From NCBI GenBank assembly GCA_015057705.1, contig SVDU01000021.1:1-64000 (forward strand): a stretch of 64,000 nt of DNA, written 5' to 3'. Position 1 is the first letter of the stretch; each line of letters starts with the position of its first letter. Below the pieces are notes generated by a model, which searched no databases, was not told where the DNA came from, and worked only from the letters and a program-made list of their open reading frames with translations. The position numbers were made by a program, and so were the translations under genes. Shown one piece after another: positions 2,651 to 18,936 of the stretch. Source of the DNA: Paenibacillaceae bacterium (GTDB taxonomy: Bacteria > Bacillota > Clostridia > Lachnospirales > Lachnospiraceae).

Positions 2651-2941
2651 GAAATGTAAATATTACGTTCCAATACGCCCCCCGTCATATAGACAGATTC
2701 ATTCTATATTTTATCTGCTATTTTTCTTTTAACTGATTAATACGATAAACTGCCCATGTCCGCCCGGTGGTTTTAAAGTCATTTCTTTTAGCATTTTTCC
2801 CAACATTAACTGTAATTTCAGTCCTTTTTAGAAGCCATGGTTAAAGCGATTTATCAATGGTTTGGTTAAAAACCTCTTTTTTCGGCAAACTACCAGATAA
2901 AGGCTTTATTATATGAGTTGTTACCGAAAGGAGTACGGCAT
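2651..2941. other. Intergenic leader of the exopolysaccharide operon
   Basis: About 290 bases lie between the HD gene and the first glycosyltransferase. I see no coding potential and no riboswitch core I recognise, in particular no GEMM-type c-di-GMP aptamer. No convincing -35/-10 pair stands out. The only local structure is a weak hairpin with a T tract at 2859-2882. Confidence 0.5.
2859..2882 (+). terminator. Weak hairpin plus T tract, possible attenuator
   Basis: GGTTT pairs with AAACC around a 6-base loop and is followed by TCTTTTTT, 60 bases before the operon's first start codon. The stem is only five pairs, so it may be chance. If real it would attenuate the operon or end transcription from the HD gene. 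Confidence 0.3.
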
Positions 2942-3907
2942 ATGAACAAACTTTGTATTGTTGTGCCATGCTATAACGAGGAACAGGCGCTTTTATATAC
3001 CAATGCAGAATTAATAAAAATTATGAACAGACTGGTTGAATCCGGAAAAGTTGACAAAACCAGTTTTATTCTTTATGTGGATGATGGCAGTAAGGACGGT
3101 ACCTGGAATATAATAGAAAATTTCCGGAAACAGTCAGCCGTTATCTTTGGTCTTAAACTTGCCAGAAATACAGGACATCAAAATGCGCTGACTGCTGGTC
3201 TTTTAACAGCCATGAATTATGCTGATATGGTTATTTCAATTGATGCGGACTTACAGGATGATGTCTCTGTCATGGAAGAGATGGTGGATTTATTCCTTCG
3301 GGGTAATGATATCGTGTATGGAGTTCGTAACAGGCGCGATACAGATACGTTTTTTAAAAAGTTTTCTGCTCTCGGTTTTTACAGACTGATGCAGCTGATG
3401 AAGATTAAGATTATTTATAATCACGCGGATTACCGGCTTATGTCCAAACGTGCGCTACTGCAATTTTCTTTATATAAGGAACGAAATTTATTTTTAAGAG
3501 GAATTGTACCTTTGATTGGATATCCGTCAGCCACAGTTATGTATGACCGGAAATCACGGATAGCTGGTAATTCCAAATATTCACTGGGCAAGATGTTGTC
3601 CATGGCGTTTGAAGGAATTACATCATTTAGCATACAACCTATTCGAATGATAACCGATTTAGGTCTTGGGATTGTGGTGTTTAGTATATGTGCAACGATC
3701 TATGCATTTTATTCCTACATTACTGGAAAAGTGGTTGCAGGCTGGACTTCTACCATTTTATCAATCTGGTTTATCGGTGGTGTACAGCTTTTATCTGTGG
3801 GACTTATTGGCACTTATATCGGAAAGATTTACGTGGAAGTAAAAGAACGGCCCAGATATGCCATTGAGGTGAATGATTTAACGGAGATCAGTCATGAACA
3901 ATCATGA
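2942..3907 (+). CDS. GT2 glycosyltransferase with C-terminal membrane pair (GtrB/DPM1-like)
   Basis: Family 2 glycosyltransferase of the type that moves a sugar from a nucleotide to polyprenyl phosphate on the inner leaflet. The N-terminal GT-A domain shows VVPCYNEEQ, YVDDGSKDGT and the DXD region SIDADLQDD. Two hydrophobic segments near residues 235-300 anchor it, as in GtrB and YkcC-type enzymes. I chose ATG 2942 over an upstream TTG at 2918 because GAAAGGAG sits 8 bases before it. The next gene, a GT-C-type membrane protein, overlaps its end by 14 bases; together they fit a donor-synthase plus extracellular transferase pair that decorates the polymer made further down the operon. The sugar cannot be read from the sequence. 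Confidence 0.85.
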   Translation: MNKLCIVVPCYNEEQALLYTNAELIKIMNRLVESGKVDKTSFILYVDDGSKDGTWNIIENFRKQSAVIFGLKLARNTGHQNALTAGLLTAMNYADMVISIDADLQDDVSVMEEMVDLFLRGNDIVYGVRNRRDTDTFFKKFSALGFYRLMQLMKIKIIYNHADYRLMSKRALLQFSLYKERNLFLRGIVPLIGYPSATVMYDRKSRIAGNSKYSLGKMLSMAFEGITSFSIQPIRMITDLGLGIVVFSICATIYAFYSYITGKVVAGWTSTILSIWFIGGVQLLSVGLIGTYIGKIYVEVKERPRYAIEVNDLTEISHEQS

Positions 3908-5432
3908 GGACAAAGGTCCTGTTCCATATATTAACTTCTTTCTTAAACTACTGCAGGAAGTAAGAAAAAAGATTGGGAAAATCAATTCTATTATGGAAGG
4001 AAAATATTCTCCTGCCCTTCTTGCATCTGGCGTAACAGTCATTGCAGCCCTGATTACCCTCTTAATTCTTTTTCTGCCCAATTATCTTGGTGTTGCAAAT
4101 GATGGGACTACGGATGGAATTATGAAATCTGCCGGTTTCTACTATATAAATAAAGATCCGGTTACTAACTATGGAGACTATTTTATAAAAACTTATACAG
4201 AAGTTGCATCTGGAGAGGAAGTTCAGGGGAACGTATGGAATAGCCAGCTTGTTTTTCTCAGGGCAGCAAAAGCATTGGGTCAGCTGTTTACGCGGGACAG
4301 TATTTTTGATATCCGTTTTTTAGCCCTGATTTATTTTTTGCTCTATCTTCCTGCTCTGTACCTCATAATACGACAGAGCTGTGAACGGGTAAAAAGCTTT
4401 TCAGAAGGGGCATTGATTGCGGGAGTGGGGCTGATCATTTTGTCAGATGTAGGTTATATGACCTATTTTAATTCATTCTATCCGGAGGCAATCTGGTTTC
4501 TTGCCATACTTTATTGTGTGGGAGGATATATGTCTTTTCAGAAAAAGAGGTCTGGATACAAAGATTTGTCTGCCCTGGTTCTGATTTTGTTATGGGGGAG
4601 TGTACTGGTCAGTTCCAGACGACAATGTGCGGTAATGGGGTTTATTATTGCGATATCGGTTATTCGTCTGATAACAATCCGCAGAAGCTTTATCTGGGGA
4701 GGAGTCTGCATAGCCGGCGCTTTTTTGCTAAGCCTGCTCTCTTTTGTCTGTATTCTTGGATACCCATCTGATTTTAGTGAAACCAGTAAATTACACGCCA
4801 TGACAAGAGGAGTTTTGTTCAGTTCTGCCGATCCGGCTAAGACTCTTACAGAATTTAACATTGATCCTTCCTACGAATTGCTGGCGGATGCATCTGCGTA
4901 TGATTATCTGCCTTTTGTGAAATCCGGTGACAGTTCCTTATACCATGGCTTTATGGATCAATATACGATTCCCGATATTGGAATTTATTATTTGCGCCAT
5001 CCAGACAGCCTGATTGGCATGATTGATGTTTCCATTAAACAAGGGATGGATATGAGACGGAGTAATTGCGGAAACTATGAGAAAGTGGCAGGATTCCCAA
5101 AGAAAGCAAAAAGTCTTTTCTGGTCTTTATGGAGCAGCTTTAAAGAATTATCCGCACCAAAAACTGTGGGATATTTAATTCTGCTGACTGTTGCGGTTAT
5201 TATCTTATTTTATAAAGGGTATTCCTTACGCCGGGTGGAAGACAGAAGAAATACAGTATTTTTGGATATGCTTATTATGGTTCTGGCCTTTTTACTTTCC
5301 CAATCCATTTTAGTAATTGTTAACAGCGGTGATGCCGAGATGGCTCAGAGGCTGTTTCTGGTGGGGCTGTCAATTGATATTATGACCTACTGTGTGTTTG
5401 GGGAGTTACTTCATAAGCTTAGAATCGTTTAG
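3894..5432 (+). CDS. GT-C-type polytopic glycosyltransferase (WsfD-like)
   Basis: A 512-residue membrane protein with about ten hydrophobic segments and a large outward loop after the first (from about residue 60), which carries acidic residues (GVANDGTTDG) where GT-C enzymes keep a catalytic Asp. A second soluble stretch lies near 290-390. It resembles the hexose transferase WsfD of S-layer glycan loci and other polyprenyl-phosphate-sugar-using transferases; the match is by general pattern. It overlaps the preceding GT2 gene by 14 bases, which suggests translational coupling. Expected role: transfer of the lipid-linked sugar onto the growing exopolysaccharide outside the cell. Confidence 0.7.
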   Translation: MNNHEDKGPVPYINFFLKLLQEVRKKIGKINSIMEGKYSPALLASGVTVIAALITLLILFLPNYLGVANDGTTDGIMKSAGFYYINKDPVTNYGDYFIKTYTEVASGEEVQGNVWNSQLVFLRAAKALGQLFTRDSIFDIRFLALIYFLLYLPALYLIIRQSCERVKSFSEGALIAGVGLIILSDVGYMTYFNSFYPEAIWFLAILYCVGGYMSFQKKRSGYKDLSALVLILLWGSVLVSSRRQCAVMGFIIAISVIRLITIRRSFIWGGVCIAGAFLLSLLSFVCILGYPSDFSETSKLHAMTRGVLFSSADPAKTLTEFNIDPSYELLADASAYDYLPFVKSGDSSLYHGFMDQYTIPDIGIYYLRHPDSLIGMIDVSIKQGMDMRRSNCGNYEKVAGFPKKAKSLFWSLWSSFKELSAPKTVGYLILLTVAVIILFYKGYSLRRVEDRRNTVFLDMLIMVLAFLLSQSILVIVNSGDAEMAQRLFLVGLSIDIMTYCVFGELLHKLRIV

Positions 5433-5466
5433 AACCAGCATTTGTGCTTGAAATGTGAGGAAAATA

Positions 5467-6330
5467 ATGACTAATAGACATTCGTTTGGTTATTTGCTGC
5501 AGGATATTGGACTGGTAATTTTGTTGTTTTGCTTATTTGCAGGAGCAATGGTAGTCAGCTACTCAGAAAAATCCACGATGTTAGAAGCGGTTATCATGCT
5601 TCTTGGAACTTTTTTCGTGATTTTATTTTCCGGGTTTAAGCTGTTTTCATTGTCCCTTGTACTGGCTGGAATAGAGGTCACCTTCTATACTGCTTACCGG
5701 CTGTATTTATTCCTGTCCTATGATATTGAAATTCCTTTTTACAGCTATATCTGGATTCTCATACCTCTTATTTCTGCTGCAGCCATGTATCTGTTCGTAT
5801 CAGGAATCAACAGACTGGAGCTTGAAAATGACATGTTAAGGAGGCAGGTAGATGAACTGGTTGTGCTGAACCCGCTGACAAAACTCTATAATCTGAGAAG
5901 TCTTTACAATGATCTTAATGTTCTGGCCGCTTATGCTGAGAGAAACCAGATGTCCCTTTCCCTTATGATAATCATGCTGAAATATGAAGCGGAGTTAAAA
6001 AGCATATTGTCCAGGCAAAATTATGAGCTTGTAATACAGAGGCTGGCTGAACTTGTGGTAGATACGGTGCGGGTGGAGGACAAGACCTATTCCATTGACA
6101 ATAAAGGATCTCTGGCTGTTATACTGACCTGCGGCAAAGAGGGTAGTGAGATAGCAATGAGGAGAATCAGAAACCGGATTTCTGAACGGGATGCTTTTAG
6201 TGGCATTACTGATAAAGCAATCAAGATAGAAGTAAAGATGGCAAGTCTGGAATATGAAAAAGAGATTTATGAAAACAATATGATTCTCTTTAAACAGAGG
6301 GTGGAAAATGAACTGCAGTATGATGTATAA
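5467..6330 (+). CDS. Membrane protein with degenerate GGDEF domain, likely c-di-GMP receptor (YdaK/PssE-like)
   Basis: About 287 residues. The first 120 contain four hydrophobic segments, then a short helical linker (ELENDMLRRQVDELV) leads into a GGDEF fold beginning NPLTKLYNLRSLYNDL. The catalytic motif is lost: where GGDEF should be, residues 211-215 read DNKGS. The inhibitory-site motif RxxD is kept as R202-V-E-D205, exactly five residues upstream, as in functional GGDEF proteins. That combination is known from c-di-GMP receptors such as PelD and B. subtilis YdaK. I chose ATG 5467 (TGAGG six bases before) over GTG 5455. It lies next to the DUF2334 and synthase genes, the same partners as in ydaJKLMN. 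Inferred role: switches on the synthase when c-di-GMP binds. Confidence 0.8.
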   Translation: MTNRHSFGYLLQDIGLVILLFCLFAGAMVVSYSEKSTMLEAVIMLLGTFFVILFSGFKLFSLSLVLAGIEVTFYTAYRLYLFLSYDIEIPFYSYIWILIPLISAAAMYLFVSGINRLELENDMLRRQVDELVVLNPLTKLYNLRSLYNDLNVLAAYAERNQMSLSLMIIMLKYEAELKSILSRQNYELVIQRLAELVVDTVRVEDKTYSIDNKGSLAVILTCGKEGSEIAMRRIRNRISERDAFSGITDKAIKIEVKMASLEYEKEIYENNMILFKQRVENELQYDV

Positions 6331-7906
6331 AAAAATCTTATTTTATATAGCCGGATTCCTGTTTTTTTCCCTTGCCAGTATGGGAAAAAAATCTCTGACT
6401 TCCTTTGCAGAAGAGGTGCCAAAAGGAGATATCCTGATTATCTATCAAGATAATGCTGATGATAATACGAAGGCTGGGGTTGAGGATCTTGTAAAACTTC
6501 TGACCTTTCAAAGCTTTAAGATCAGCTATGGCCCGGCTTCCTGGGGGATGGAGTATCTAGATGGGTTCTCCTATGTGATCTGCTATGATTTAGAACAGAG
6601 TCCCCCTGGATTTACCAGCAGACTGAGTCGATATGAAACCAAAAGTGCAATTGATTGGAAAATGGAATCACCCCATATTTTATTTATAGGTAATCAGTAT
6701 TTCAAAACTTATCTGGACAGCACAAACAGGTCAGATCAGTATGAACTGTTAAACAGCACTGTGGGACAGCTGCAATATTCGTTTTATGGCTCTGAAGGTA
6801 AAAGTGGTCTGGTGCGGGAAGATTATTTTATATTTTTAAAAAAATCCTCCTACCAAAATGGCATAGTAACAGTTAATAATAAAAATGGATATTTTTGCGC
6901 AAAAGATGGCAGATTAACCCATATCCCTGTTGCTGATCTGAGCAGTCAGTTAGTTCGGGCGGCTATGACCAGAGAAGTTTCAAAGTGGAAATGGCCGTAT
7001 AACGGGAATCCTCATATATTTGCCCAGTACATCTTAATTGACAAAGTTTATCCCTATGAAGACCCGGAAAAGCTGTTACAGGCAGTAAATCTGATGATAG
7101 AGAAAAAAATTCCATTTGTCATTTCTGTGATGCCAATGTATGTAAATGGAGATTATCCTTCCATGACACATTTTTGTGAAGTATTGCGTTTCGCGCAGGC
7201 TGGAGGCGGTGCAGTAATTATTAACGCCCCAATTGACCAGATGAACCCACTGGATAAAGAGGTAATGCTTGATTATCTTGCCCGGGCAATGACCATATAC
7301 AACAAACAGGGAGTTTATCCACTGGCTTTAGAAGTACCACAAAACTGGATGTTTCATAAAGATACCATCGAAATTATGAGTCATTTTAAAACAATTTTTT
7401 CTTCCGATGAGGTGGATTCTTATTTAGGCCAGGAGGATATGAATCATAATGAGGTTTATAAAGACGGACATCAGTGGGTGGGGGCATCAATCCCTGTAGA
7501 TGATACGAAAGTCAGTTATTTGTCCGCTTATTCTACTGCAGTACTCATAGGTCTGGACGAGGATTTTGAAGAGATCAAAAGAAAAGTGGGAGTCTGTCAA
7601 AACTCCTTTGTACCATTAAAAAGTCTTTGGGATGTGGAGCACAGCTATTGGCTGGACAAACAGCTGATGACTTATAAAAATGGAGATCTGATTTTAAATG
7701 GAAAAAAAATGGATTTAAACTTTACCCCCACTGTTTATCCGGAACAATACAATTACCGCCGTAATATGCTTCAGCGGTTTTCCCGGGATTTGACAAACCA
7801 GAGCAGAAGACTGGTAATTGCGGTAGGACTTACTTCCATACTTTTTGTGTTCCTGATTTTCTGGGCCAGATTAAAGAACAGGAAAAATTATTTCTTTCAT
7901 GAATAG
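6308..7906 (+). CDS. Extracellular DUF2334 (NodB-fold) protein, apparently catalytically degenerate (YdaL-like)
   Basis: A 532-residue protein with an N-terminal signal or anchor helix (about 8-25), a Rossmann-like first domain (LIIYQDNADD), a DUF2334 polysaccharide-deacetylase-like domain from about 235, and a C-terminal membrane helix (about 500-522) with a basic end. In active family members I expect an Asp pair and an HGxxH-type motif for the metal. Here the first reads D245-K246 and the second N306-A-P-I-D310, so metal binding looks lost. It overlaps the previous gene by 23 bases; GAGGG precedes the ATG. Position between the GGDEF-like and synthase genes matches B. subtilis YdaL. It may bind or guide the polymer rather than deacetylate it; that is inference. 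Confidence 0.75.
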   Translation: MNCSMMYKKILFYIAGFLFFSLASMGKKSLTSFAEEVPKGDILIIYQDNADDNTKAGVEDLVKLLTFQSFKISYGPASWGMEYLDGFSYVICYDLEQSPPGFTSRLSRYETKSAIDWKMESPHILFIGNQYFKTYLDSTNRSDQYELLNSTVGQLQYSFYGSEGKSGLVREDYFIFLKKSSYQNGIVTVNNKNGYFCAKDGRLTHIPVADLSSQLVRAAMTREVSKWKWPYNGNPHIFAQYILIDKVYPYEDPEKLLQAVNLMIEKKIPFVISVMPMYVNGDYPSMTHFCEVLRFAQAGGGAVIINAPIDQMNPLDKEVMLDYLARAMTIYNKQGVYPLALEVPQNWMFHKDTIEIMSHFKTIFSSDEVDSYLGQEDMNHNEVYKDGHQWVGASIPVDDTKVSYLSAYSTAVLIGLDEDFEEIKRKVGVCQNSFVPLKSLWDVEHSYWLDKQLMTYKNGDLILNGKKMDLNFTPTVYPEQYNYRRNMLQRFSRDLTNQSRRLVIAVGLTSILFVFLIFWARLKNRKNYFFHE

Positions 7907-7916
7907 GGAGAGTGCC

Positions 7917-9209
7917 ATGTCATTTATTGATATTCTTGCAATCTATTCCATCTTTGCTATCTGGGGGCTGCTGTTCATAAATATTCTGCTCTCTATAGGC
8001 GGTTATATCTACATTATGAGAATGTACCGCACAGATGGACATCATACGGTTTTGGAGTACCCAATCGTAACGGTTATGGTTCCTGCCCATAATGAAAGTA
8101 TTGTGTTGAAAAAAACCATGGAGGCTTTAATAAAATTTGATTATCCCAAGGACCGGTATGAGATCATCGTTGTTAATGACAACTCTACCGATGATTCTGC
8201 TCAGGTCTTAAAAACCATTCAGCATAACAATCCGTCTGCCAAAATTATAGTAATCAATACAGACCCGGTAGTGGGGGGGAAAGGAAAATCCAATGCATTA
8301 AATATTGCACTATCGGTGGCATCAGGTTCTGTCATTGCTATTTATGATGCAGATAATACACCGGAGAAGCAGGCTCTAAAGATTCTCGTGGAAAATCTCA
8401 TGTCAGACGATAAGCTGGGTGCAGTGATAGGTAAGTTCCGAACCAGAAATAAATATGCATCTTTACTGACAAGATTTGTAAACATTGAGACTTTGGCTTA
8501 TCAGTGCATGAACCAGGCGGGGAGATATTTCTTTTTCAAACTGTGCACCATTCCCGGAACTAATTATGTGATAAGGCGTGAATTAATTGACCAGATGGGG
8601 GGCTGGGATGTAAATGCACTTGCAGAAGATACAGAAATCAGTTTTCGTCTGTACAGAATGGGCTATTATATTAAATTTATTCCTCAGGCAGTCACCTGGG
8701 AGCAGGAGCCACAGAAACTGAAGCAATGGTTTAAGCAGAGAACCCGGTGGGTAAAAGGCAATTTATATGTATTAAAAAGCAATTTTAAATATGCCTTCGA
8801 TCCCCATGCAGGAATCATGAGGCTGGATGTGATCTATTACGCTCTGGTTTACCTGCTGATGTTCAGCTCTCTTATTTTTTCGGATATTATTTTTGTCATT
8901 GGCATTCTGGGGCTTGGTCATGTGACCTTAGGGGGATTTTCCTCTTTGCTGTGGGAAATGGCAATTTTGCTGTTCGTTTTAAATGTAGCAATTACCTTAT
9001 CGGTGGAAAGAAATGAATTCAATTTAAATAATATACTTCTCACCTTTGTCATGCTATTTACTTATGCAAAAATGTGGGTTCTGGTTGTAGCAAATGGCAT
9101 GATTCAGGGAATCCGGGATGCGCTCTATCAAAAAGAAGTTGTCTGGGACAAGACGGAACGCTTTGAGGAAATAACAGAGAAAGCCGTAAAAAATACGAAG
9201 CAGGTTTGA
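7917..9209 (+). CDS. Processive GT2 polysaccharide synthase (YdaM/PssA/BcsA-like)
   Basis: Membrane-embedded processive glycosyltransferase. One N-terminal helix is followed by the GT-A core with D88 (VVNDNSTDD), D144-A-D146, E237-D238 and the processivity motif Q274-R-T-R-W278, then about four membrane helices. There is no PilZ domain, so c-di-GMP control would have to come from a partner, most simply the degenerate GGDEF protein two genes upstream. I prefer ATG 7917 (GGGAGAG four bases before) to 7899, which overlaps the previous stop. In Bacillus and Listeria the homologous synthases sit with YdaN/PssB-type BcsB partners, as here. wecB at the operon's end points to ManNAc in the polymer. 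Confidence 0.9.
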   Translation: MSFIDILAIYSIFAIWGLLFINILLSIGGYIYIMRMYRTDGHHTVLEYPIVTVMVPAHNESIVLKKTMEALIKFDYPKDRYEIIVVNDNSTDDSAQVLKTIQHNNPSAKIIVINTDPVVGGKGKSNALNIALSVASGSVIAIYDADNTPEKQALKILVENLMSDDKLGAVIGKFRTRNKYASLLTRFVNIETLAYQCMNQAGRYFFFKLCTIPGTNYVIRRELIDQMGGWDVNALAEDTEISFRLYRMGYYIKFIPQAVTWEQEPQKLKQWFKQRTRWVKGNLYVLKSNFKYAFDPHAGIMRLDVIYYALVYLLMFSSLIFSDIIFVIGILGLGHVTLGGFSSLLWEMAILLFVLNVAITLSVERNEFNLNNILLTFVMLFTYAKMWVLVVANGMIQGIRDALYQKEVVWDKTERFEEITEKAVKNTKQV

Positions 9210-9227
9210 AAATAAGGAGAGACGACA

Positions 9228-11504
9228 ATGACAACGTTGATGGATATAGTTAAGAAGAAAATAAAGAGGCCGGGGAAAATATCCGCAGCCTGTCTGATGC
9301 TGTTTGTCCTGATGATGACCCCTCTGGCAGCGTACGGTTATAGCGTCAATGCTGGGGGACTTAGTAATGCCCCGGAAAAAAGACAGCCTGAAAAGACAGA
9401 CTCCAAAAAAGAGGATGAGATCCATCTTCTTCCTGTTGCAGAGCCTGAATCTGCTCCATTACCAGATCAGAATGAGCCCGTATATGAACCGGTCAGTCAT
9501 ACCCAGGACAACTTTTTTTACAGGAAAACTCTAAAAGGTATTTATTCTTCCACGGATCTGTATTTTTATGTGGAAGATTACTGGGATACAAAATATGTAT
9601 ATGCAAAAATTCAGTATGATGTAAGCCAGCTCATTGAGAGCACTGCCTCATCTGTTACCTTTACCATCAACGATATCCCCCTCCAGTCTTACAAGCTGGA
9701 GTATAAAGACGGCAATTCCCAGATTCTGTATGTAAAAATCCCCATGGAGCAGGTACGTTCCGGTTATAATTCCTTTTCCATATCTGCTTATGCAAGACTT
9801 TTTGACCAGCAGGGTTGCGTAGATGATTATTCTGATGCCAACTGGCTGGGAATTGCTGACACATCTTATATCAGATGCGGCTACGAAAGCAGGGATCCTG
9901 AGCACAGGATTTCATTTTATCCATATCCGTTTATGTCAACTTATAATCCCACTGGCAAGGGACTTTTCATTGCCGTATCTGATGAAGCTGCGTCAGGAGA
10001 AGTGGCTGCTGCCATGAGCCTGATGGCAGATTTAAGTAAGCAGACAGGAAAAAGAAATGAAATTGAACTATGCCGTATCTCTGATTTAAAGTCCAATAAT
10101 CCTTCCGATACCATACTCATCTCGGATTATAACAATCTGCCTGCCGAGTATAAAGATAAAATGACAAAGGCGCCGGATTCGTCCGGAAATGCAATTGTTA
10201 ATTTTATTGATGATACCAATTTAAGGCCCCTTCTTCTGATTACATCAAATGATGACGCAGGTTTGAAGGAAGCTGCTGACATGCTTATGGATGAAAGCCG
10301 CCGGAAGCAGGAAACCGGAAATCTTGCAGTTGTGGAAAAGGGAAGTGGGGAGCAGGCGGTTAATGCGGCAAAACTAAGTGATCTGACTGCCTGGAATTAC
10401 ACTCTGGAGGATATTATGGGAAGCGGACTTTCCTTTGCAGGACCGTTTCATCAGGAAAAATATGTCTACCTTCCAGTTTCCAGGGATTTTGTTCTGGCAC
10501 AGGGCGGAAAGGTAGTTTTAAAGTTCCGTTACAGTGAAAATCTGGATTTTAAACGATCTCTGATCACTGTATTCTGGGGTGATGTTCCCTGTGCCAGCAA
10601 GCGCCTCAGCCAGGAAAAGGCGTCGGGCGATGAACTGAACTTTGAAATGCCAGCAGATGTCATAGGAACGTCTGCTGCCAGCTTGAAAATATCATTTGAC
10701 TTGGAAATTCCTGATTTAATTTGTACTCCCAGGCAAAGCGATATGCCATGGGCTTATGTATCCAGAGAATCTGCCATATTTTTGCCCCCTGCAGCAGATA
10801 TGAGATTGTCTTTTGATTCCGGAGTTTCTCCTTTTAGCCGGAACGGAAAATTCAATGATGTACTGCTGGTTCTTGGTGATAACCCAACTTCTGTTGAACT
10901 TAATCTGTTGGGACAGACTATGGCAATGCATGGAAGAGAGGCAAAACCCTACGGAACCATACTTGTGAAACGGGCTGGTGAATTTAATAAAGACGACGGG
11001 GATTATAACATCATTACGGCGGGTACACTGTCTGGAAATACGTTTTTAGCCCAGGTTAATAATAATCTGGCATTTCAGTTTTCCCAGGATGGTAATTCCT
11101 TTGAGAGTAATGATCAGCTGATTTTTTCCAGGGATTACGCAGGAAAGATCGGGGTTATGCAGCTGCTAAAATCCCCCTATTCCCTTAACCGGACTCTGCT
11201 GGTACTTGCAGGAAGCAGCCAGGATACCCTTAAGAACCTTGAGGATTACTTAAGAGACAGCAGTAAAAGAGAAGAACTGAAAAAGGATTGTGTGGTGATA
11301 GATGCCAATCAGAATATCACGACTCTTAAGTTTATAAAAGATGAGGAGGTTAAGGAAGGCCCCACTCTGGCAGAGAAACTGGTCCGGAATAAGAAATCCC
11401 TTGTTTTTACAGTCATTGCAACATCAGCTATGTTTCTAATGCTAATTGCCGTAATCATTATTCTGTTGCGGATACGGGTATATAGAAAAAAGAATGAAGA
11501 ATAA
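9228..11504 (+). CDS. BcsB-like exopolysaccharide synthase partner (YdaN/PssB-like)
   Basis: A 758-residue secreted, membrane-tethered protein: signal helix at about 20-38, a Pro/Glu-rich linker, a long beta-rich ectodomain, and one C-terminal membrane helix (about 725-748) followed by a basic tail. The ectodomain has the BcsB layout of alternating carbohydrate-binding jelly rolls and flavodoxin-like folds (YFYVEDYWDTKYVYAKIQYD early, FAGPFHQEKYVYLPVSRDF later). It would guide polymer leaving the synthase. It starts 19 bases after the synthase stop with AAGGAGAG before the ATG. BcsB-family membership rests on architecture and neighbour. Confidence 0.85.
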   Translation: MTTLMDIVKKKIKRPGKISAACLMLFVLMMTPLAAYGYSVNAGGLSNAPEKRQPEKTDSKKEDEIHLLPVAEPESAPLPDQNEPVYEPVSHTQDNFFYRKTLKGIYSSTDLYFYVEDYWDTKYVYAKIQYDVSQLIESTASSVTFTINDIPLQSYKLEYKDGNSQILYVKIPMEQVRSGYNSFSISAYARLFDQQGCVDDYSDANWLGIADTSYIRCGYESRDPEHRISFYPYPFMSTYNPTGKGLFIAVSDEAASGEVAAAMSLMADLSKQTGKRNEIELCRISDLKSNNPSDTILISDYNNLPAEYKDKMTKAPDSSGNAIVNFIDDTNLRPLLLITSNDDAGLKEAADMLMDESRRKQETGNLAVVEKGSGEQAVNAAKLSDLTAWNYTLEDIMGSGLSFAGPFHQEKYVYLPVSRDFVLAQGGKVVLKFRYSENLDFKRSLITVFWGDVPCASKRLSQEKASGDELNFEMPADVIGTSAASLKISFDLEIPDLICTPRQSDMPWAYVSRESAIFLPPAADMRLSFDSGVSPFSRNGKFNDVLLVLGDNPTSVELNLLGQTMAMHGREAKPYGTILVKRAGEFNKDDGDYNIITAGTLSGNTFLAQVNNNLAFQFSQDGNSFESNDQLIFSRDYAGKIGVMQLLKSPYSLNRTLLVLAGSSQDTLKNLEDYLRDSSKREELKKDCVVIDANQNITTLKFIKDEEVKEGPTLAEKLVRNKKSLVFTVIATSAMFLMLIAVIIILLRIRVYRKKNEE

Positions 11505-11536
11505 GCAGATAATTTGGGAAAGGGGTGAAGAAAAGG

Positions 11537-13501
11537 ATGAGATTAGAGAAAAACTGGTTTTATCATTTCTGCATTGCGTTATCAATTGCAGGTATGGGCT
11601 ACATCCTCATTGCAGGCGTTTCCGATGCTCAGGGAAATCAGGAATATCCTTATGTAATGAAAGGAATGCTCATTCTCATCTTCTTCCTCACCTGGGCAGG
11701 AGTAAACTTTTTAGCGCTGCTGTCTGCCAGGCTTTCCATTACCGAAAAGCTTAAAAAATATCATAATTACCTTTTGGCTGTGGAAGTAATTTATGTCATT
11801 CTTATTCTGATTCTGGCATTTGCCGCCAGACTTTTCGTCATACGGAATCTGCCCATGGAACCGGCATCTGATTATAAAACCTATTACGAGATAGCTGGAA
11901 TGTTAAAGGAAGGGGTTCTGCAGGAAAAGGGAGAAGGCTATTGTAACTATATTGGGATGTTTCCCCATATACTGGGTTACTGCTATATTTTAAAAACTAT
12001 TTTTGTTGTATTTGGAACCAGAGTCTGGAACGGACAGATAGCAAATGTCTTGTTCTCCGTAGGAACGGTTTATCTTATTTACAGGATTGCCAGAAGGCTG
12101 GGAGGGAGAATGGCAGGGCTTACAGCACTTACAGCGTCAGCATTCTGGCCCTCCCAGATCCTTTACGTCAACATGCTTGCAGCCGAATATTCCTTTTCAT
12201 TTTTCTTATACCTGTGTGTACTGCTTTTTCTTCATTTAGTCATGGATTATGATGGCGCAACAAAGCATGGGGTCAGAGGAGTTCTTTTTCATATTGTCCT
12301 TGGCTGTCTGATTGCAGTGACTGCGGCAATTCGTCCAATGGCTGTAATATTATTAATTGCTATCCTTATATTTTTGATTCCTCTTAAGTCCAAATTACCG
12401 GAGATACCACACAACAGCATTTCTGTCTGGGTAAGGTTTCTGGCCAGGGGGTTTATGAGGGCAGCGCTCATGGTGCTGGCCTATATGGCGGTATCCAGTG
12501 TTCTTAATACAGATATAGAACTCACCATTAATAAATCAACACCTTCCTTTAGCCAGTCCTTTGGCTATAATCTTTTGGTAGGACTTAATCAGGAATCAAG
12601 CGGGGTATGGAATGAAGAAGATTCCAGGTATTTATATGAGAATCTGGAACGGACCGGTTCGCCCATAGAAGCACAGATTGCGTGCCGGAATCTGGCATTA
12701 AAGCGGTTGTCTGCAGAACCAGGGGGAATATTTAACCTGTTTATAAAAAAATACGAATTGCTGTGGGAAAATGATAATTATGGGGCTGACTGGAATCTGG
12801 CCTTTTTAAAAGAGCAAAATGAACTGACTCCAGACAGGGAAGTATTTCTCAATCAGGCAAAAAGTGCCAGCCAGATTGTTTATATGGTGGCTGTGCTCTT
12901 CTCTTTTCTGACGCTGATTTATCTGCTGCAAAGAAAGGCATCCTCTCTTTATGTTCTGGTTCTGGTTTATTTAGGGACAGCTGCCATGCATCTTATGGTT
13001 GAAAGCCAGAATCGTTATCACTTTCATATTTTGCCTGTATTTATAATTGTTTCATCTGTAGGGATAAAATATATTTTTGAAAATGCTGTAACATTTGTAA
13101 ATACTTCGGATTGGGAACGGCAGCAGAAAAATGAACAACAGATCAGAGAAGCGACTGTATTAAAACAATTTGAATTAGAAGAACATAAAGCCATTGAACA
13201 GCGATATAAAAGTATGACCAATGCTTTTGATATGCAATCAGCCATTTTAAACGGCAATGTTACTGTTACTGTTTCAGAAGCTTATACCCAACCCGATCCA
13301 TTTATGAAAGAAAAAAACAAGGTCTCTGCCGCTGAGACATCTCCAAAGATATCACAGGAAAAAGAAACAGAGAAAATGATAAAGAAGGAGCCGGCGAGAT
13401 TGGGGCATTCCGATTTAGAGGAGCTTATTCTGGAACTGGAAGAGATTGCAGAGACAGGAAAGGTGCCAAATGAACATGACGAAAGGGGACATTCGGTATG
13501 A
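11537..13501 (+). CDS. GT-C-type membrane glycosyltransferase (PMT/ArnT-like) with long cytoplasmic tail
   Basis: About 654 residues. Some ten membrane helices span the first 510 residues; the first large loop carries the acidic motif EPASDYKTYYE typical of GT-C enzymes that use polyprenyl-phosphate sugars. After the last helix a charged, Glu/Lys-rich tail of about 140 residues (from about 515) is predicted to be cytoplasmic and partly helical, which is not usual for the family. I use ATG 11537 with AGGGGTG nine bases upstream, rather than GTG 11525. Its end overlaps the next start (ATGA). It is the second GT-C gene of the operon, so two kinds of side group or two steps of one decoration are possible. 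Confidence 0.75.
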   Translation: MRLEKNWFYHFCIALSIAGMGYILIAGVSDAQGNQEYPYVMKGMLILIFFLTWAGVNFLALLSARLSITEKLKKYHNYLLAVEVIYVILILILAFAARLFVIRNLPMEPASDYKTYYEIAGMLKEGVLQEKGEGYCNYIGMFPHILGYCYILKTIFVVFGTRVWNGQIANVLFSVGTVYLIYRIARRLGGRMAGLTALTASAFWPSQILYVNMLAAEYSFSFFLYLCVLLFLHLVMDYDGATKHGVRGVLFHIVLGCLIAVTAAIRPMAVILLIAILIFLIPLKSKLPEIPHNSISVWVRFLARGFMRAALMVLAYMAVSSVLNTDIELTINKSTPSFSQSFGYNLLVGLNQESSGVWNEEDSRYLYENLERTGSPIEAQIACRNLALKRLSAEPGGIFNLFIKKYELLWENDNYGADWNLAFLKEQNELTPDREVFLNQAKSASQIVYMVAVLFSFLTLIYLLQRKASSLYVLVLVYLGTAAMHLMVESQNRYHFHILPVFIIVSSVGIKYIFENAVTFVNTSDWERQQKNEQQIREATVLKQFELEEHKAIEQRYKSMTNAFDMQSAILNGNVTVTVSEAYTQPDPFMKEKNKVSAAETSPKISQEKETEKMIKKEPARLGHSDLEELILELEEIAETGKVPNEHDERGHSV

Positions 13502-15117
13502 AAAAAGCCCTTCCGCGAAGCAGGGTGGAAAAGGTATTAATTATCATCCTCTGCATCCTTACGGTATTTACTGCAGGGGGTCTTCTTTTCCTGTCTCACT
13601 ATTTCAATAAGGAGGAAGAATTGTTAAAGAATCAGAGGGAAAGTGCAGATGAAACTTCTCTTGATGATATCACGGCGATTTTTCCAGAATACTGCAATAT
13701 CAATGAGAAAATTCCTGACATCCGTTTTACTGATGAATCAGGAGGTATAGTGACAATGAAAGATTTCGAGGGAAAGCCGGCTATAATAACCTTCTGGGCC
13801 AGCTGGTGTCCGGATTGCAGAAAAGAACTTTCTCATATCAGGGAATTTATAAATACCTCAAAGAATTATGGCGACATCAATTATATTCTTATAAATAGAA
13901 CAGATAATAAAAAGGAAACCAAAGAAACAGCAAAAAAGTATCTGTCTGAACAGGGCATTACCATGAATACTTACTATGATGAAGGTATGACCGCCTATCA
14001 GGAGCTTGGCCTTCATACCATCCCGACCACATTGTTTCTGGACGAGCATGGAGTGATCCGGTCATGGAGTATCAAGCCAATTGAAAAGACCTCTGTATTT
14101 GAAGGATATTTAAAAGATCTGGCAGAAGGAAGCGGGAAGGTGACCGGGAATTTTGTACTGAATCATCTCATGGATGACCGGGGAGGAGTTCATACAATTT
14201 ATGATCCAGAGGCAGACAGTGCCATAAAAAGCGATGTTCTAAGCGAAACTCAGGGTGTGATGCTGGAATATGCGTTACTTCGGAAGGATCAGAAGCTATT
14301 TGAAAAAATTCTCTCTTATATTAACAAAGTAATGCGGGTAAATGGTATAACCGGGTGGATCGTCAGCAATGATAAGCCATCAGAAGTGAATTCGCTTTTA
14401 GATGACTTACGAATTCTGGGTGCACTGCTCTCGGCTAATAATTTATGGGGTGGTTATGACCAGTTAATAGCCAATTATACAGATGAAATTGCAAAATATG
14501 GAATTCACAATAGAAATTATGTGGATTTCTATGATTCCGGTTATAAAAAATATGCTGACCGCTTTACTCTCTGTTATGGAGACTTACCGGTTATGTCCCG
14601 GCTGACGACCCTGGATGACCGTTTTACACAGCCTTATGAGTCAGCAAAAAAAATAATTCTTGGGGGAAAAATAAGTGAAGGGTTTCCTCTGTACTACAGT
14701 TGGTATGATTATAATAAAAACTCTTATGTTTCTGATGATTTAAATACTGCAGAAGCGATGGTCACGCTGCTTCACCTGGCAGAGGCTGGTTTGCTGGCGG
14801 ATGATTCCATTGCCTGGCTAAAAACGCAAATGGATGCAGGGGGTGTAAAAGCACGATACAAAACAGATGGAACGGTAGTGGAAGGTTATAATTATGATTC
14901 AACGGCTGTTTATGCGCTGATTGCCATGATTGGGGAAATAGAAGGAGATAAAAAACTCCAGGGAAAAGCTCTGAAGAAGATGGAAAAAATGAGGATTATG
15001 GATACCGCTTATCCCTATTACGGTGCATTTGGAATGGAAGATGGAAGCGGCATCACATCCTTTGATCAGGTTATGGCAATGCTGGCTTATGAGTATACTG
15101 GAAAAACGGCAGACTGA
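13498..15117 (+). CDS. Thioredoxin-like (TlpA) domain fused to GH8-like (alpha/alpha)6 hydrolase domain
   Basis: A 539-residue protein anchored by one N-terminal helix (about 11-32). Residues about 70-210 are a TlpA/ResA-type thioredoxin fold with the redox pair C104-P-D-C107 (ASWCPDC) and the cis-proline loop GLHTIPTTLF. From about 215 to the end is a helical-barrel domain like glycoside hydrolase family 8: S249-E250-T-Q-G253 matches the SEGQG-type motif with the acid Glu, D302-D303 (LLDDLRILGALL) matches the next conserved Asp, and D467 (NYDSTAVYAL) is a candidate base. B. subtilis YdaJ and Listeria PssC are lone GH8-like enzymes in the same kind of operon; I do not know of a thioredoxin fusion. 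Start overlaps the previous stop. Likely trims or releases polymer outside the membrane. Confidence 0.8.
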   Translation: MKKALPRSRVEKVLIIILCILTVFTAGGLLFLSHYFNKEEELLKNQRESADETSLDDITAIFPEYCNINEKIPDIRFTDESGGIVTMKDFEGKPAIITFWASWCPDCRKELSHIREFINTSKNYGDINYILINRTDNKKETKETAKKYLSEQGITMNTYYDEGMTAYQELGLHTIPTTLFLDEHGVIRSWSIKPIEKTSVFEGYLKDLAEGSGKVTGNFVLNHLMDDRGGVHTIYDPEADSAIKSDVLSETQGVMLEYALLRKDQKLFEKILSYINKVMRVNGITGWIVSNDKPSEVNSLLDDLRILGALLSANNLWGGYDQLIANYTDEIAKYGIHNRNYVDFYDSGYKKYADRFTLCYGDLPVMSRLTTLDDRFTQPYESAKKIILGGKISEGFPLYYSWYDYNKNSYVSDDLNTAEAMVTLLHLAEAGLLADDSIAWLKTQMDAGGVKARYKTDGTVVEGYNYDSTAVYALIAMIGEIEGDKKLQGKALKKMEKMRIMDTAYPYYGAFGMEDGSGITSFDQVMAMLAYEYTGKTAD

Positions 15118-15159
15118 CTGAATTGGCAAAATTAATTAACTAAAAAGGAGTTTTGTGCC

Positions 15160-16266
15160 ATGAAGAATATCATGCTGGTATTTGGGACAAGACCAGAGGC
15201 CATTAAAATGTGCCCTCTGGTAATTGAGTTGAGAGGCAGGAAAGAAGCAAGGGTTTGCGTCTGTGTAACAGGTCAGCATAAATCCATGTTAAAGCAGGTT
15301 TTAGATGGGTTTTCAATTAATCCGGACTATGATCTTTCCATTATGAAAGATAAGCAGACACTTTTTGAAATTACTGTAAATATTTTAAATAAGATTCGTG
15401 AGGTTCTGGAAAAAGAAAAGCCAGACGTGGTGCTGGTTCATGGTGATACTTCCACGGCATTTGTCTGTGCCCTTGCCTGCTTTTATCTGCAGATTCCGGT
15501 GGGGCATGTAGAGGCCGGATTAAGAACCTATGATATTTATTCCCCTTATCCTGAGGAATTTAACAGACAGGCCATTGGTATTATTGCAAACTATCACTTT
15601 GCTCCCACGGAAAAAGCCAGGGAGAATTTAATTTCTGAGGGTAAGAATCCTTCTGCCATATTTGTTACAGGGAATACAGGAATTGATGCATTAAAAACCA
15701 CGGTGAGAGCGGACTACAGCCATGAGCTTTTAACGTGGTCTTTGGGAAGCAAGCTGATCTTACTGACTGTTCACCGAAGGGAAAATGTAGGGGAACCTAT
15801 GAGACAGATTTTTCGTGCTGTCAAACGGATTACTGAGGCACATCCTGAGGTTAAGGTTATTTATCCCATTCACTTAAACCCACGTGTCAGGGAAATCGCT
15901 GGTTCTGTATTAGGGGGAGAGGAACGGATTCGTCTGATTGAACCCCTGGATGTAATTGATTTTCATAATTTTATGGCGAGAGCAGATCTTATTTTAACGG
16001 ATAGCGGGGGTATACAGGAAGAAGCGCCAAGCCTGGGAAAACCGGTACTTGTTCTTCGCAAATCAACAGAGCGGCCGGAAGGAGTTGATTCTGGGGCGCT
16101 GCTTTTGGTTGGGATTGAAGAAGAATGTATTTACGAAGCCGTAACACGTTTACTGGCTGATAATAGGCTCTATAACAGGATGCGCAGTGCAGATAATCCC
16201 TATGGTGATGGAGAAGCAAGCAGAAGAATTGCAGATATTTTACTGGGAAAGAAAGAAAACAAATAG
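15160..16266 (+). CDS. wecB: UDP-N-acetylglucosamine 2-epimerase (non-hydrolysing)
   Basis: A 368-residue cytoplasmic enzyme interconverting UDP-GlcNAc and UDP-ManNAc. Full length for the family, with FGTRPEAIKM at the N-terminus, HGDTSTAF, VEAGLRTYD with the PYPEEFNRQ motif, TVHRRENVG, and TDSGGIQEEAPSLGKPVLVLR near the C-terminus. A strong AAAAAGGAG lies nine bases before the ATG. It follows the GH8-like gene by 42 bases and a hairpin comes after it, so it is probably the last gene of the exopolysaccharide operon. It would supply UDP-ManNAc to the synthase, in line with the ManNAc polymer made by Listeria Pss; it could also serve wall teichoic acid. Confidence 0.93.
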   Translation: MKNIMLVFGTRPEAIKMCPLVIELRGRKEARVCVCVTGQHKSMLKQVLDGFSINPDYDLSIMKDKQTLFEITVNILNKIREVLEKEKPDVVLVHGDTSTAFVCALACFYLQIPVGHVEAGLRTYDIYSPYPEEFNRQAIGIIANYHFAPTEKARENLISEGKNPSAIFVTGNTGIDALKTTVRADYSHELLTWSLGSKLILLTVHRRENVGEPMRQIFRAVKRITEAHPEVKVIYPIHLNPRVREIAGSVLGGEERIRLIEPLDVIDFHNFMARADLILTDSGGIQEEAPSLGKPVLVLRKSTERPEGVDSGALLLVGIEEECIYEAVTRLLADNRLYNRMRSADNPYGDGEASRRIADILLGKKENK

Positions 16267-16303
16267 TACAGGTTCTGCATGTAAAACATGGAAAGCCTGT
16301 ACT
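16265..16303. terminator. Hairpin between convergent wecB and mgsA
   Basis: Arms AGTACAGG / CCTGTACT enclose a further small stem (ATGT / ACAT). Flanks are AT-rich on both sides but neither has a long T run, so it may act weakly in both directions. Confidence 0.5.
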
Positions 16304-16316
16304 ATTATTAATGAAC

Positions 16317-16793
16317 TTATAATGTTTTTGCTCTGTCTGCGATATTCTTATTAAAGTTAATCACCTGATGCTCATAGGTATTTTCCATGAGAGGAGAGGT
16401 AATAATGAAATCAGCAGTTGCTCTGGTGTTGGCCATGGGAATATCATAAACCTGGGCAATTCGAAGCAGTGCCTTTACATCCGGGTCATGAGGCTGTGCA
16501 GTCAATGGATCGGAGAAGAAGATAACCAGATCAATCCGGCCCTCTACAATCTTTGCACCAATCTGCTGGTCACCGCCTAAAGGACCGCTGTTATAGCCTT
16601 TTACCGGAAGGCCTGTCTGATCTGTGATCATGCGGGCAGTCGTACCAGTACCGCACAGAGTGTGGTTTTTTAAGGTCTCCTTATGCTCGATGCACCATTC
16701 GATTAATGCACGTTTCTCATTATCATGGGCAATCAGCGCAATGTTTTTTTGCTTTTGAAGCGTCAGTGTAATAAAATCTTCCTGTAACATCAT
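16317..16793 (-). CDS. mgsA: Methylglyoxal synthase
   Basis: A 158-residue cytoplasmic enzyme converting dihydroxyacetone phosphate to methylglyoxal and phosphate, a bypass that relieves sugar-phosphate stress. Family motifs are intact: ALIAHDNEK at the N-terminus, the phosphate loop CGTGTTARM, SGPLGGDQQIG with the catalytic Asp, and FFSDPLTAQPHDPDVKALLR. AGGAGG lies very close to the first ATG, so the second ATG three bases on (16790) may be used. It lies just downstream of the BTAD regulator gene on the same strand with a 43-base gap and could be read from the same promoter. Confidence 0.95.
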   Translation of the reverse strand: MMLQEDFITLTLQKQKNIALIAHDNEKRALIEWCIEHKETLKNHTLCGTGTTARMITDQTGLPVKGYNSGPLGGDQQIGAKIVEGRIDLVIFFSDPLTAQPHDPDVKALLRIAQVYDIPMANTRATADFIITSPLMENTYEHQVINFNKNIADRAKTL

Positions 16794-16836
16794 AGTCCTC
16801 CTGTTGTAGGTATTAATAAGAGTAGTAGTACCTCAT

Positions 16837-18036
16837 TTAAAACGGCAGAACGCTTTGCAGAGAGTAAGTAATGGACAGATCTTTTCTGGAATATTCCTTT
16901 TTAAAATTCTGAATGATACGCTTTAAAACCATCTCTCCGTTTTCGTAGGTCGCTGTAGGGAGAAGCATCAGATACTGACTTACGCTGTAACGGCTGTAAA
17001 CGTCTCCTCTGCGAAGAGAGTTGCGGATGGAACTGCCCAGTTCATCCATGGCACGGGTCTGTACCGCAGGCTTTAACAACTCACCCTTTAAATTGCTGAT
17101 GGTAAGCAGGCATAAAAAGATGGAATCGCCGGTTCGCTCAATGGCTCTGGCCTCCAGCTGGTAGATATCCCGGAATACGGAAGGCTCGCAGCAAAATGCC
17201 CCCTTATTGGTTCCTCCTTCTAAAAGAATCTCTCTGATGGTGCTTAAATCCATGGTGATTCCGTGCTTTTTGTCGCTGATCATTTTATACAGCTCTTTAA
17301 AGCGGATGGAAGGAGTAATGGCAAACTCGTTATAGAACATGTCGTTTACCCGTTTGTAGTGCTCCAGGGACATCATCTGGTTGCCGCTCTGGTACAGAGC
17401 ATAGATCAGATAGTAATGTGCTTCCTCCCCATAAGGATCGATGGAGATTGTCTGCTGGCAGACATCTATCATCGTAGGATAATCCTTTCTGTCATCTAAC
17501 ATTACCAGGATCTTTTTTACTAATTTCTGATATAGGGTATGATAATAGGTGTGAATCGGGATTACCCAGGATTCCCATTCGGATTTTGGAAGAAAGTTTC
17601 CTTTATAAAGATTAAATGCCTCCATTGACAGTTTCAGGCGGGTCTCTTCCGTAAATTCCTTGCTATCAGCCTGCAGACAAAGCTCTTCGAACTTGTCCGT
17701 ATCGCATACGGTGGTAAGATCCCTTGTCCAGCCGTAGGCCTTTCTGTTTTGGAATACCAGTTCCTGAGTGGGAAACCCAAGTGGCTCAAGAAGCTTTCGC
17801 ACGCGGAACATCAGCGTCTTTAAAGCACCAGCAGGATTATTGCTGGCTTCATCTTTCCAAAACAGGTCGATTAATTCATCAACGGGAATATCCCTGCCGC
17901 GAAACGTGATTAAATATTCCAAAAGACTCCACGGTTTTTTAGCCTGATTATTCTGATCAACAATTATCTTGTCTCCGATGGTAACGGAGAATCCACCCAG
18001 CATGTTCACATAAATGATCGTCTCTTGATTTTTCAT
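16837..18036 (-). CDS. SARP/BTAD-type transcription regulator with C-terminal degenerate GGDEF-like domain
   Basis: About 399 residues. Residues 1-100 are an OmpR-like winged helix of the SARP kind (MLGGFSVTIGD, PWSLLEYLITFRG, LKTLMFRVRKLL); about 105-250 are the helical bacterial transcriptional activator domain (YKGNFLPKSEWESWV, YGEEAHYYLIYALYQSG). The last 130 residues are usually left unnamed, but read like a GGDEF fold: an AIERTGDSIFLCLL strand, then R342-R-G-D345, VYSRY, and S351-V-S-Q-Y355 followed by LMLLP. This keeps RxxD and the RY just before GGDEF while the catalytic residues are gone. I use ATG 18036 (GGAG six bases before) instead of TTG 18048. Target genes unknown; the exopolysaccharide operon lies 0.6 kb away. 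Confidence 0.8.
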   Translation of the reverse strand: MKNQETIIYVNMLGGFSVTIGDKIIVDQNNQAKKPWSLLEYLITFRGRDIPVDELIDLFWKDEASNNPAGALKTLMFRVRKLLEPLGFPTQELVFQNRKAYGWTRDLTTVCDTDKFEELCLQADSKEFTEETRLKLSMEAFNLYKGNFLPKSEWESWVIPIHTYYHTLYQKLVKKILVMLDDRKDYPTMIDVCQQTISIDPYGEEAHYYLIYALYQSGNQMMSLEHYKRVNDMFYNEFAITPSIRFKELYKMISDKKHGITMDLSTIREILLEGGTNKGAFCCEPSVFRDIYQLEARAIERTGDSIFLCLLTISNLKGELLKPAVQTRAMDELGSSIRNSLRRGDVYSRYSVSQYLMLLPTATYENGEMVLKRIIQNFKKEYSRKDLSITYSLQSVLPF

Positions 18037-18113
18037 AATTTTCTCCAAAGTAACATTTTCTTTCCTTAGTATATAGAAAAAAATGTTAAAAGTCTAGCGC
18101 AGCTTATAAAAGA

Positions 18114-18142
18114 TTGAGATTTTTATTAAAATAAGCTATACT
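18114..18142 (+). promoter_or_regulatory. Promoter of the sortase gene
   Basis: TTGAGA and TATACT are spaced by 17 bases, ending 38 bases before the srtB start. Confidence 0.65.
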
Positions 18143-18180
18143 AAAGCAGAAGATTATAAAAAAGAAAGCAGGAGATTGCT

Positions 18181-18936
18181 ATGAACAGAAAAAAACTGTC
18201 TACAGGAATTCTTATACTTGCATTTCTGCTTCTGGCTGTGGGAGCCGGAGTGCTTTACTTTGATTACCGTGACAGGCAGTATTCTGACAACCTGTATGAA
18301 AGCCTGGCTGAGCTGGCAAAGGAACCGGAAGAGAGCGTGACTGCCCCGGCGGAAACACAGAAAGAGAAAGAAGTACCTTACGTATCTCCTATTTCTTTTG
18401 ATGAACTAAAAAAGATTAATCCTGACATTGTTGGCTGGATCCGCATTGCTGATACGAACATTGATTACCCCATCGTTCACACGGACAACAATGATACTTA
18501 CCTGGACACGGATTTTGATGGAAAAAAGAATCCGTCAGGAACCATATTTCTTGACTGTGACAGCGAACCTGATTTTTCAGGAAGGCATAACATAATTTAT
18601 GGGCATCATATGAAAGATGGTTCCATGTTTAAGGATATCATAAAGTATAAAGAGGAATCTTTTTATCGTGCCCATCAGGACATTGTGATCTATACCCCCC
18701 AGCAGGAATTTCATTTGCGGCCGATCACCGTACTTTATACGGACCCAGGCGGAATACGCAGAAAAACAAAATTTGAATCAGATGAGAGCTTTTCACTGTA
18801 TTTAGATGAGATGACAAAGAACGGCATGTTTTATCAGGCACCGGAAGAGCCGGTTAAAACGCTGTGGTCATTTGTCACCTGCAGCTATGAATTTGATGAT
18901 GCAAGAACGATTCTATATGCAACATTAGTCCCTTAA
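18181..18936 (+). CDS. srtB: Class B sortase
   Basis: A 251-residue transpeptidase that joins surface proteins to the wall. One N-terminal membrane helix (about 7-27) is followed by an acidic linker and the sortase beta barrel. The triad is visible: His142 (IIYGHHM), Cys234 (TCSYEF) and Arg242 (DDARTILYATLVP). The intervening helix and the FxxLxxINPDIVGWI start mark class B. No candidate substrate with a C-terminal sorting motif lies in this window, so it is probably a housekeeping sortase, as is common when a clostridial genome has only SrtB. glmM follows after 73 bases without a clear terminator. Confidence 0.93.
   Translation: MNRKKLSTGILILAFLLLAVGAGVLYFDYRDRQYSDNLYESLAELAKEPEESVTAPAETQKEKEVPYVSPISFDELKKINPDIVGWIRIADTNIDYPIVHTDNNDTYLDTDFDGKKNPSGTIFLDCDSEPDFSGRHNIIYGHHMKDGSMFKDIIKYKEESFYRAHQDIVIYTPQQEFHLRPITVLYTDPGGIRRKTKFESDESFSLYLDEMTKNGMFYQAPEEPVKTLWSFVTCSYEFDDARTILYATLVP

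Follow-up and report, generated by a model that had tools for sequence, protein, structure and literature searches.

The regulators AfsR and EmbR share a winged helix followed by a BTAD domain, after which AfsR continues with ATPase and TPR parts and EmbR with an FHA domain. The protein described here, encoded within a window of 64,000 nucleotides (the whole stretch of DNA that was analyzed), matches the winged helix and BTAD of AfsR and EmbR in its N-terminal part and differs from both in its C-terminal part, which is a degenerate GGDEF domain. GGDEF domains can hold cyclic di-GMP (c-di-GMP) at an inhibitory site, the I-site. As described in the accessible part of a study of the Thermotoga diguanylate cyclase tDGC, c-di-GMP is contacted there by R158 and D161 of the RxxD motif and by R115 of the partner domain, with RxxD occurring in 57% of diguanylate cyclases, of which 64% also have the secondary arginine (PMC4215984). 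The available portion of a second paper gives Arg-390 of PleD as a further c-di-GMP contact, and reports that YfiN has RxxD, lacks the other two arginines and does not bind c-di-GMP (PMC3838380). Since YfiN has RxxD yet does not bind, RxxD alone is insufficient. For Listeria PssE, the excerpted text describes a degenerate GGDEF domain that binds c-di-GMP with a Kd of 0.79 uM and two molecules per protein (PMC4125290), a precedent showing that a dead GGDEF domain in a Firmicute can bind c-di-GMP.

Taken together, the computed domain make-up, predicted fold, loss of the catalytic motif, conservation of four residues, association with c-di-GMP domains and gene neighbourhoods suggest that the regulator is quite probably a one-component transcription factor that would respond to c-di-GMP by binding it directly.

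A winged-helix regulator with a GGDEF-like C-terminus

A sequence-only reading of this DNA had proposed a SARP/BTAD regulator ending in a degenerate GGDEF domain, with catalysis lost and the I-site retained on a DNA-binding protein. Both the architecture and the combination of lost catalysis with a retained I-site are borne out by the predicted fold, the profile searches and conservation. The gene and its parts are laid out as follows:

16837..18036, minus strand: regulator coding sequence, winged helix-BTAD-degenerate GGDEF, 399 residues (open reading frame, Pfam, predicted fold, orthologs)
17251..18021, minus strand: winged helix and BTAD, the DNA-binding part, residues 6-262
16840..17196, minus strand: degenerate GGDEF module, residues 281-399

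The minus-strand frame starts with ATG at 18036 and its stop codon ends at 16837; an alternative TTG start at 18048 overlaps the likely Shine-Dalgarno sequence. The BTAD domain scores above its Pfam cut-off (47.5 bits against 22.1, E 3.2e-12). Trans_reg_C is below cut-off at 18.3 bits against 26.2, and the winged-helix DNA-binding domain was found through a structure match to AfsR and EmbR that begins at residue 6. The GGDEF family PF00990 is likewise sub-threshold for the single sequence (17.5 bits against 23.8, E 0.0037), with a match at residues 330-390 as converted from a 403-residue numbering. A match to the NCBIfam SiaD family reaches E 2.9e-6, yet with 26.9 bits against a cut-off of 290.

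In the predicted fold, which was compared with known structures using VIA-align, residues 6-262 match AfsR and EmbR and residues 281-399 match GGDEF structures, and GGDEF topology, which the earlier reading required of the C-terminal part, is present there. The predicted domain stops at residue 399, without part of the C-terminal GGDEF elements. The model has a pTM of 0.61 and a pLDDT of 63–67 for residues 251-280, and the relative orientation of its domains is uncertain.

Named relatives of the window's genus are mostly Lacrimispora, and the nearest match to the regulator, from L. xylanisolvens, has ∼100% identity over 399 residues. An ortholog is found in 23 of the 24 other genus genomes searched, the exception being a genome that is 82% complete.

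The I-site residues and their conservation

Four residues of the GGDEF-like domain, together with the altered catalytic motif, are central to what follows:

17134..17136, minus strand: R301, counterpart of the secondary I-site arginine (tDGC R115), in 50/51 members
17002..17013, minus strand: RxxD primary I-site, R342 and D345 (RRGD), aligned with tDGC R158/D161, in 51/51 members
16972..16986, minus strand: SVSQY, degenerate catalytic motif with GGDEF lost, residues 351-355, G[DE]EF in 0/51 members
16918..16920, minus strand: R373, equivalent of PleD R390 (tDGC R189 position), in 50/51 members

The line-up with the canonical RxxD-to-GGDEF stretch that had been proposed from the sequence is confirmed, with residues 342-360 reading RRGD-VYSRY-SVSQY-LMLLP. 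A profile alignment onto tDGC places R301 on R115, R342 on R158, D345 on D161 and R373 on R189. Since tDGC R189 lies 22 residues past the first G of the GGDEF motif, we take it, by PleD numbering, to be the position of PleD Arg-390, and R373 with it. An R..D pair alone is present five times in the regulator, so the motif by itself carries little weight; the weight of RxxD is carried by its aligned position, the fold and conservation.

Conservation was assessed across relatives, of which 145 were extracted, two removed (L112, truncated, and L129, a fragment), and the remainder collapsed to 79 distinct sequences and then to 51 below 80% identity. These 51 members are 25–79% identical to the window protein, with a median of 32%. 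All four residues are retained in 50 of the 51 and in 78 of the 79 distinct sequences, and they rank 2, 3, 5 and 8 in conservation among the 118 C-terminal positions, for which a chance probability of about 9e-6 is a rough figure. The sole exception is L026, in which R301 and R373 are both gone and whose genome has just two GGDEF matches. The regulator has the sequence and fold features looked for in an I-site receptor, namely a GGDEF fold without the catalytic motif, RxxD and a second arginine. Because the two further arginines needed for c-di-GMP binding are also retained, the I-site is more complete, and the case for it stronger, than the sequence-only reading had it.

Other positions of the module are also well kept. 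A cysteine at its start, C283, is invariant in all 51 members, and an arginine one helix turn ahead of R301, R297, is retained in 48. Together with F288, L341 and L359 these residues have no known ligand role and are equally or nearly as conserved as the four, so some of the conservation is structural. This observation, along with a decayed catalytic site that leaves the domain without an enzymatic role, could be explained if the GGDEF-like domain were a dimerization scaffold only, whose Arg/Asp set forms inter-subunit salt bridges and binds no nucleotide. We nevertheless regard a pure scaffold as unlikely, since the four retained residues are exactly the c-di-GMP contacts of solved GGDEF structures, whereas RxxD is present in only 5 of the 17 canonical domains parsed from the same genome (19 loci, with L048 and L049 unparsed). 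Fusions join the module to cyclase and HD_5 domains as well, and the only member without R301 and R373 has lost both, in the GGDEF-poor genome noted above.

These fusions come from 20 further copies of the module (from 17 loci picked because their frames or neighbours were unusual and two records of a plasmid collection), in which a Pfam scan placed the module after REC-GGDEF (L200, L201), after REC-HD_5-GGDEF (L195, L197, L198) and after GGDEF (L204). In L191 it follows REC-GGDEF-BTAD in a single 700-residue open reading frame (L191:1114-3216, G327:C1) whose GGDEF domain looks intact, and in L193 a HAD hydrolase is fused to winged helix-BTAD-module (L193:1365-3344, G380:C2). L203 encodes a short module protein that has no Pfam match, and L196, L199 and L202 also carry the module. 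All four residues are present in 19 of the 20 copies, with L193 having E at the R301 position; RxxD is found in one of the four canonical GGDEF domains aligned from the same polypeptides.

The association extends to whole genomes. Of 397 genomes in the family, 289 have a regulator-profile match with E no worse than 1e-3, and many of these matches are weak. A group of 60 genomes from outside the genus, each having a regulator match of E 9.6e-92 or better, was set against 60 with no strong match among the four candidates scored per genome (20 with none, 40 with only E 4e-5 or worse), the comparison genomes being hand-picked from listed rows. Every regulator-bearing genome has canonical GGDEF matches, between 1 and 50 each and with a best E of 3.6e-31 or better, compared with 43 of the 60 others, or 38 at better than 1e-30. 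Fisher's test gives p 4e-6 for 60/60 against 43/60 and 4e-8 by the stricter count, values that ignore phylogeny and genome size. These partners bear on whether the pocket might bind another nucleotide, such as cGAMP, c-di-AMP or ppGpp, in place of c-di-GMP. The residues in question contact guanine and phosphate, which related dinucleotides could also fit, but the fusions and co-occurrence are with GGDEF and HD_5 domains, and we therefore think a different ligand improbable.

Gene neighbourhoods and candidate targets

The surroundings of the regulator in the window comprise the following features:

2918..16266, plus strand: exopolysaccharide operon, a clade-specific neighbour and probably no dedicated target
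5455..6330, plus strand: degenerate GGDEF protein of the exopolysaccharide operon (PF00990 25.7 bits, above cut-off)
16317..16793, minus strand: methylglyoxal synthase gene mgsA (Pfam MGS, 1.2e-18)
18037..18180, no strand assigned: divergent promoter region between the regulator and sortase genes, a candidate operator, with a block conserved across 20 aligned loci
18102..18124, no strand assigned: core of the conserved block, GCTTATAAAAGATTGAGATTTTT, unique in the window at up to 3 mismatches
18181..18936, plus strand: sortase gene, oriented away from the regulator (Pfam Sortase, 34.7 bits against a cut-off of 26.6)

mgsA follows the regulator on the same strand after a gap of 43 bp, in which no terminator-like site was found on the minus strand. 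The block upstream of the regulator is conserved in an alignment of 20 loci (L081–L100), weakly so in L100, and is flanked by promoter-like pairs at 18114-18142 on the plus strand and 18096-18068 on the minus strand; promoter-like sites across 16200-18250 as a whole are not above shuffled sequence. No Rfam family reached threshold in the window, and in a search of its own genome for c-di-GMP-I the control genomes gave no signal. At 12 loci of the genus and Hungatella that are without the operon (L088–L099), mgsA and glmM are each found beside the regulator in 12/12 and the sortase gene in 11/12.

The exopolysaccharide operon itself had been noted as lying 0.6 kb from the regulator, and this is correct, as it ends at 16266, 0.57 kb away with mgsA in between. 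It does contain another degenerate GGDEF protein with RxxD, encoded at 5455-6330 (RVED-KTYSI-DNKGS), for which a PssE-like role may be supposed. Its position between an HD gene and mgsA recurs in seven fetched loci (L081–L087). This proximity, with the operon's own RxxD protein, would fit a regulator that is a dedicated c-di-GMP-dependent controller of the adjoining operon, a relationship that we find very doubtful on the distribution of the two. Only 8 of the 25 genus genomes have the operon next to the regulator; judged by its degenerate-GGDEF gene, the operon is elsewhere in six, ∼20 kb from the regulator in one and absent from nine that have the regulator, while in one further genome, 82% complete, the gene is present and no regulator was found. 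Synteny over the genus genomes therefore indicates that the operon came and went and the regulator stayed. Nor do the two share an upstream motif: the conserved block occurs only once in the window, and the best 22-mer similarity between the operon and regulator upstream regions, 17/22, was reached by 4 of 30 shuffles and so is not above shuffles. The suggested functional link between regulator and operon is thus not borne out, and as the leading interpretation it was rejected on genus-wide synteny and motif comparison. As a separate observation, the BcsB/DUF2334/degenerate-GGDEF operon, followed through its degenerate-GGDEF gene, occupies differing places in the genus genomes and is missing from some.

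The neighbourhoods of distant relatives point to surface structures. They were counted in 48 non-redundant loci (58 minus 10 redundant, several on short contigs), a set separate from the window locus and two orthologous-site loci of the genus and Hungatella (L130, L088, L096), with neighbour clusters named from one representative each. Surface or sortase families lie within 6 kb of the regulator in 23 of the 48, or 27 when PilT/GspF are added, these being raw counts without a background. By family, the same distance captures TasA-like SipW-dependent proteins at 17 loci, LPXTG-like proteins at 16, cluster c5 at 15, giant VWA proteins at 14, a SipW-type signal peptidase at 10 and a sortase at 5, where the scores behind the SipW-dependent and LPXTG calls fall slightly short of their cut-offs and those for signal peptidase, VWA, PilT and GspF are above. 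A similar arrangement is visible in Acetoanaerobium, which belongs to another order and whose regulator is at 24% identity: downstream lie an 867-residue protein, a 191-residue protein resembling signal peptidases and two short proteins whose N-termini look SipW-type, all labelled by eye.

The next gene after the regulator often encodes a protein of ∼144 residues with a conserved WQG motif, found within 6 kb at 25 of the 48 loci (for example L117:9219-9638 and L118:8076-8507) and fused to the regulator in L104 at residues about 400-553. It has an apparent double beta-beta-beta-alpha repeat and gave no Pfam, NCBIfam or clear structural match. A WQG match is present in 25/25 genus genomes, and one Lacrimispora genome encodes a double-length version of 297 residues away from the regulator (L190:7344-8237, G000:C13).

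Proposed mechanism and relation to known systems

In the regulator, the GG(D/E)EF motif and metal-binding aspartates of an active cyclase are replaced, with SVSQY at the motif and T312 at the position of the tDGC metal aspartate D126. Continued c-di-GMP synthesis by the domain from a modified active site is scarcely credible, for although S351 and Q354 within SVSQY are each conserved in 48/51 members, G[DE]EF occurs in no member, T stands at the D126 position in 42/51 and the third motif residue is variable. The conservation of S351 and Q354 suggests instead that this face of the domain may have another role.

We favor a mechanism in which the C-terminal GGDEF domain, its catalysis lost, acts as a receptor. 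The winged helix and BTAD would bind promoter DNA in the fashion of AfsR and other SARP proteins, and an intercalated c-di-GMP dimer would be bound by R342 and D345 as the primary site together with R373. R301 of a second domain could then clamp the c-di-GMP dimer, so that two subunits of the regulator would be glued together and their placement on DNA altered, with an effect that may be activation or repression. The nearest targets in Lacrimispora would be the regulator's own promoter, mgsA and the divergent sortase gene, and in other Clostridia they may include SipW/TasA-like fibre, giant surface-protein and pilus genes. Since a dead domain with a c-di-GMP pocket sits on a DNA-binding protein, the regulator probably switches surface-structure genes directly by c-di-GMP.

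More broadly, we lean towards an undescribed class in Clostridia, in which a mobile module, an inactive GGDEF domain with an invariant R..R..D..R set, is common to SARP-like regulators, response-regulator cyclases and HD_5 proteins, and in which a c-di-GMP dimer would glue two regulators together by their receptor domains, thereby controlling SipW/TasA-like fibres, giant surface proteins, sortases and type IV pili. If true, this would be the first known case of a transcription factor sensing c-di-GMP via a GGDEF I-site, in a regulator that many gut and soil Clostridia possess. Lachnospiraceae and related Clostridia have many canonical GGDEF domains, and protein receptors linking the signal to transcription seem little described in them. 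With a class of one-component regulators that is recognizable from sequence and neighbours genes for surface fibres and pili, direct tests of c-di-GMP control over surface structures would become feasible in gut Clostridia, and four residues to mutate and a candidate operator would serve as handles.

The closest described systems share parts of this design. The receptor domain of Myxococcus SgmT is a GGDEF domain. In the accessible text SgmT is a c-di-GMP receptor that regulates the extracellular matrix together with a DNA-binding protein (PMC3509222). It is a histidine kinase acting through DigR, whereas the regulator is a one-component DNA-binding protein. Listeria PssE is alike in having an inactive GGDEF domain with RxxD in a Firmicute, one that binds c-di-GMP, and unlike the regulator in being, as far as the available text describes it, an exopolysaccharide-operon protein that is not DNA-binding (PMC4125290). 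Pseudomonas PelD and Caulobacter PopA bind c-di-GMP through the RxxD of an inactive GGDEF domain, and in the portions of the sources at hand neither is a transcription factor and the second arginine of PelD comes from another domain (PMC3838380, PMC12564702). Among 13 rows of c-di-GMP transcription factors in the accessible table of a 2025 review, none binds via a GGDEF domain, with two stating no site (PMC12564702), and the open-access literature, as judged from listings, has no description of a BTAD/AfsR/SARP-GGDEF class or of a Lachnospiraceae equivalent. The regulators are thus apparently an undescribed family of putative c-di-GMP-sensing transcription factors: both of their parts are of known kinds, and it is the combination, its spread and its genomic context that appear new.
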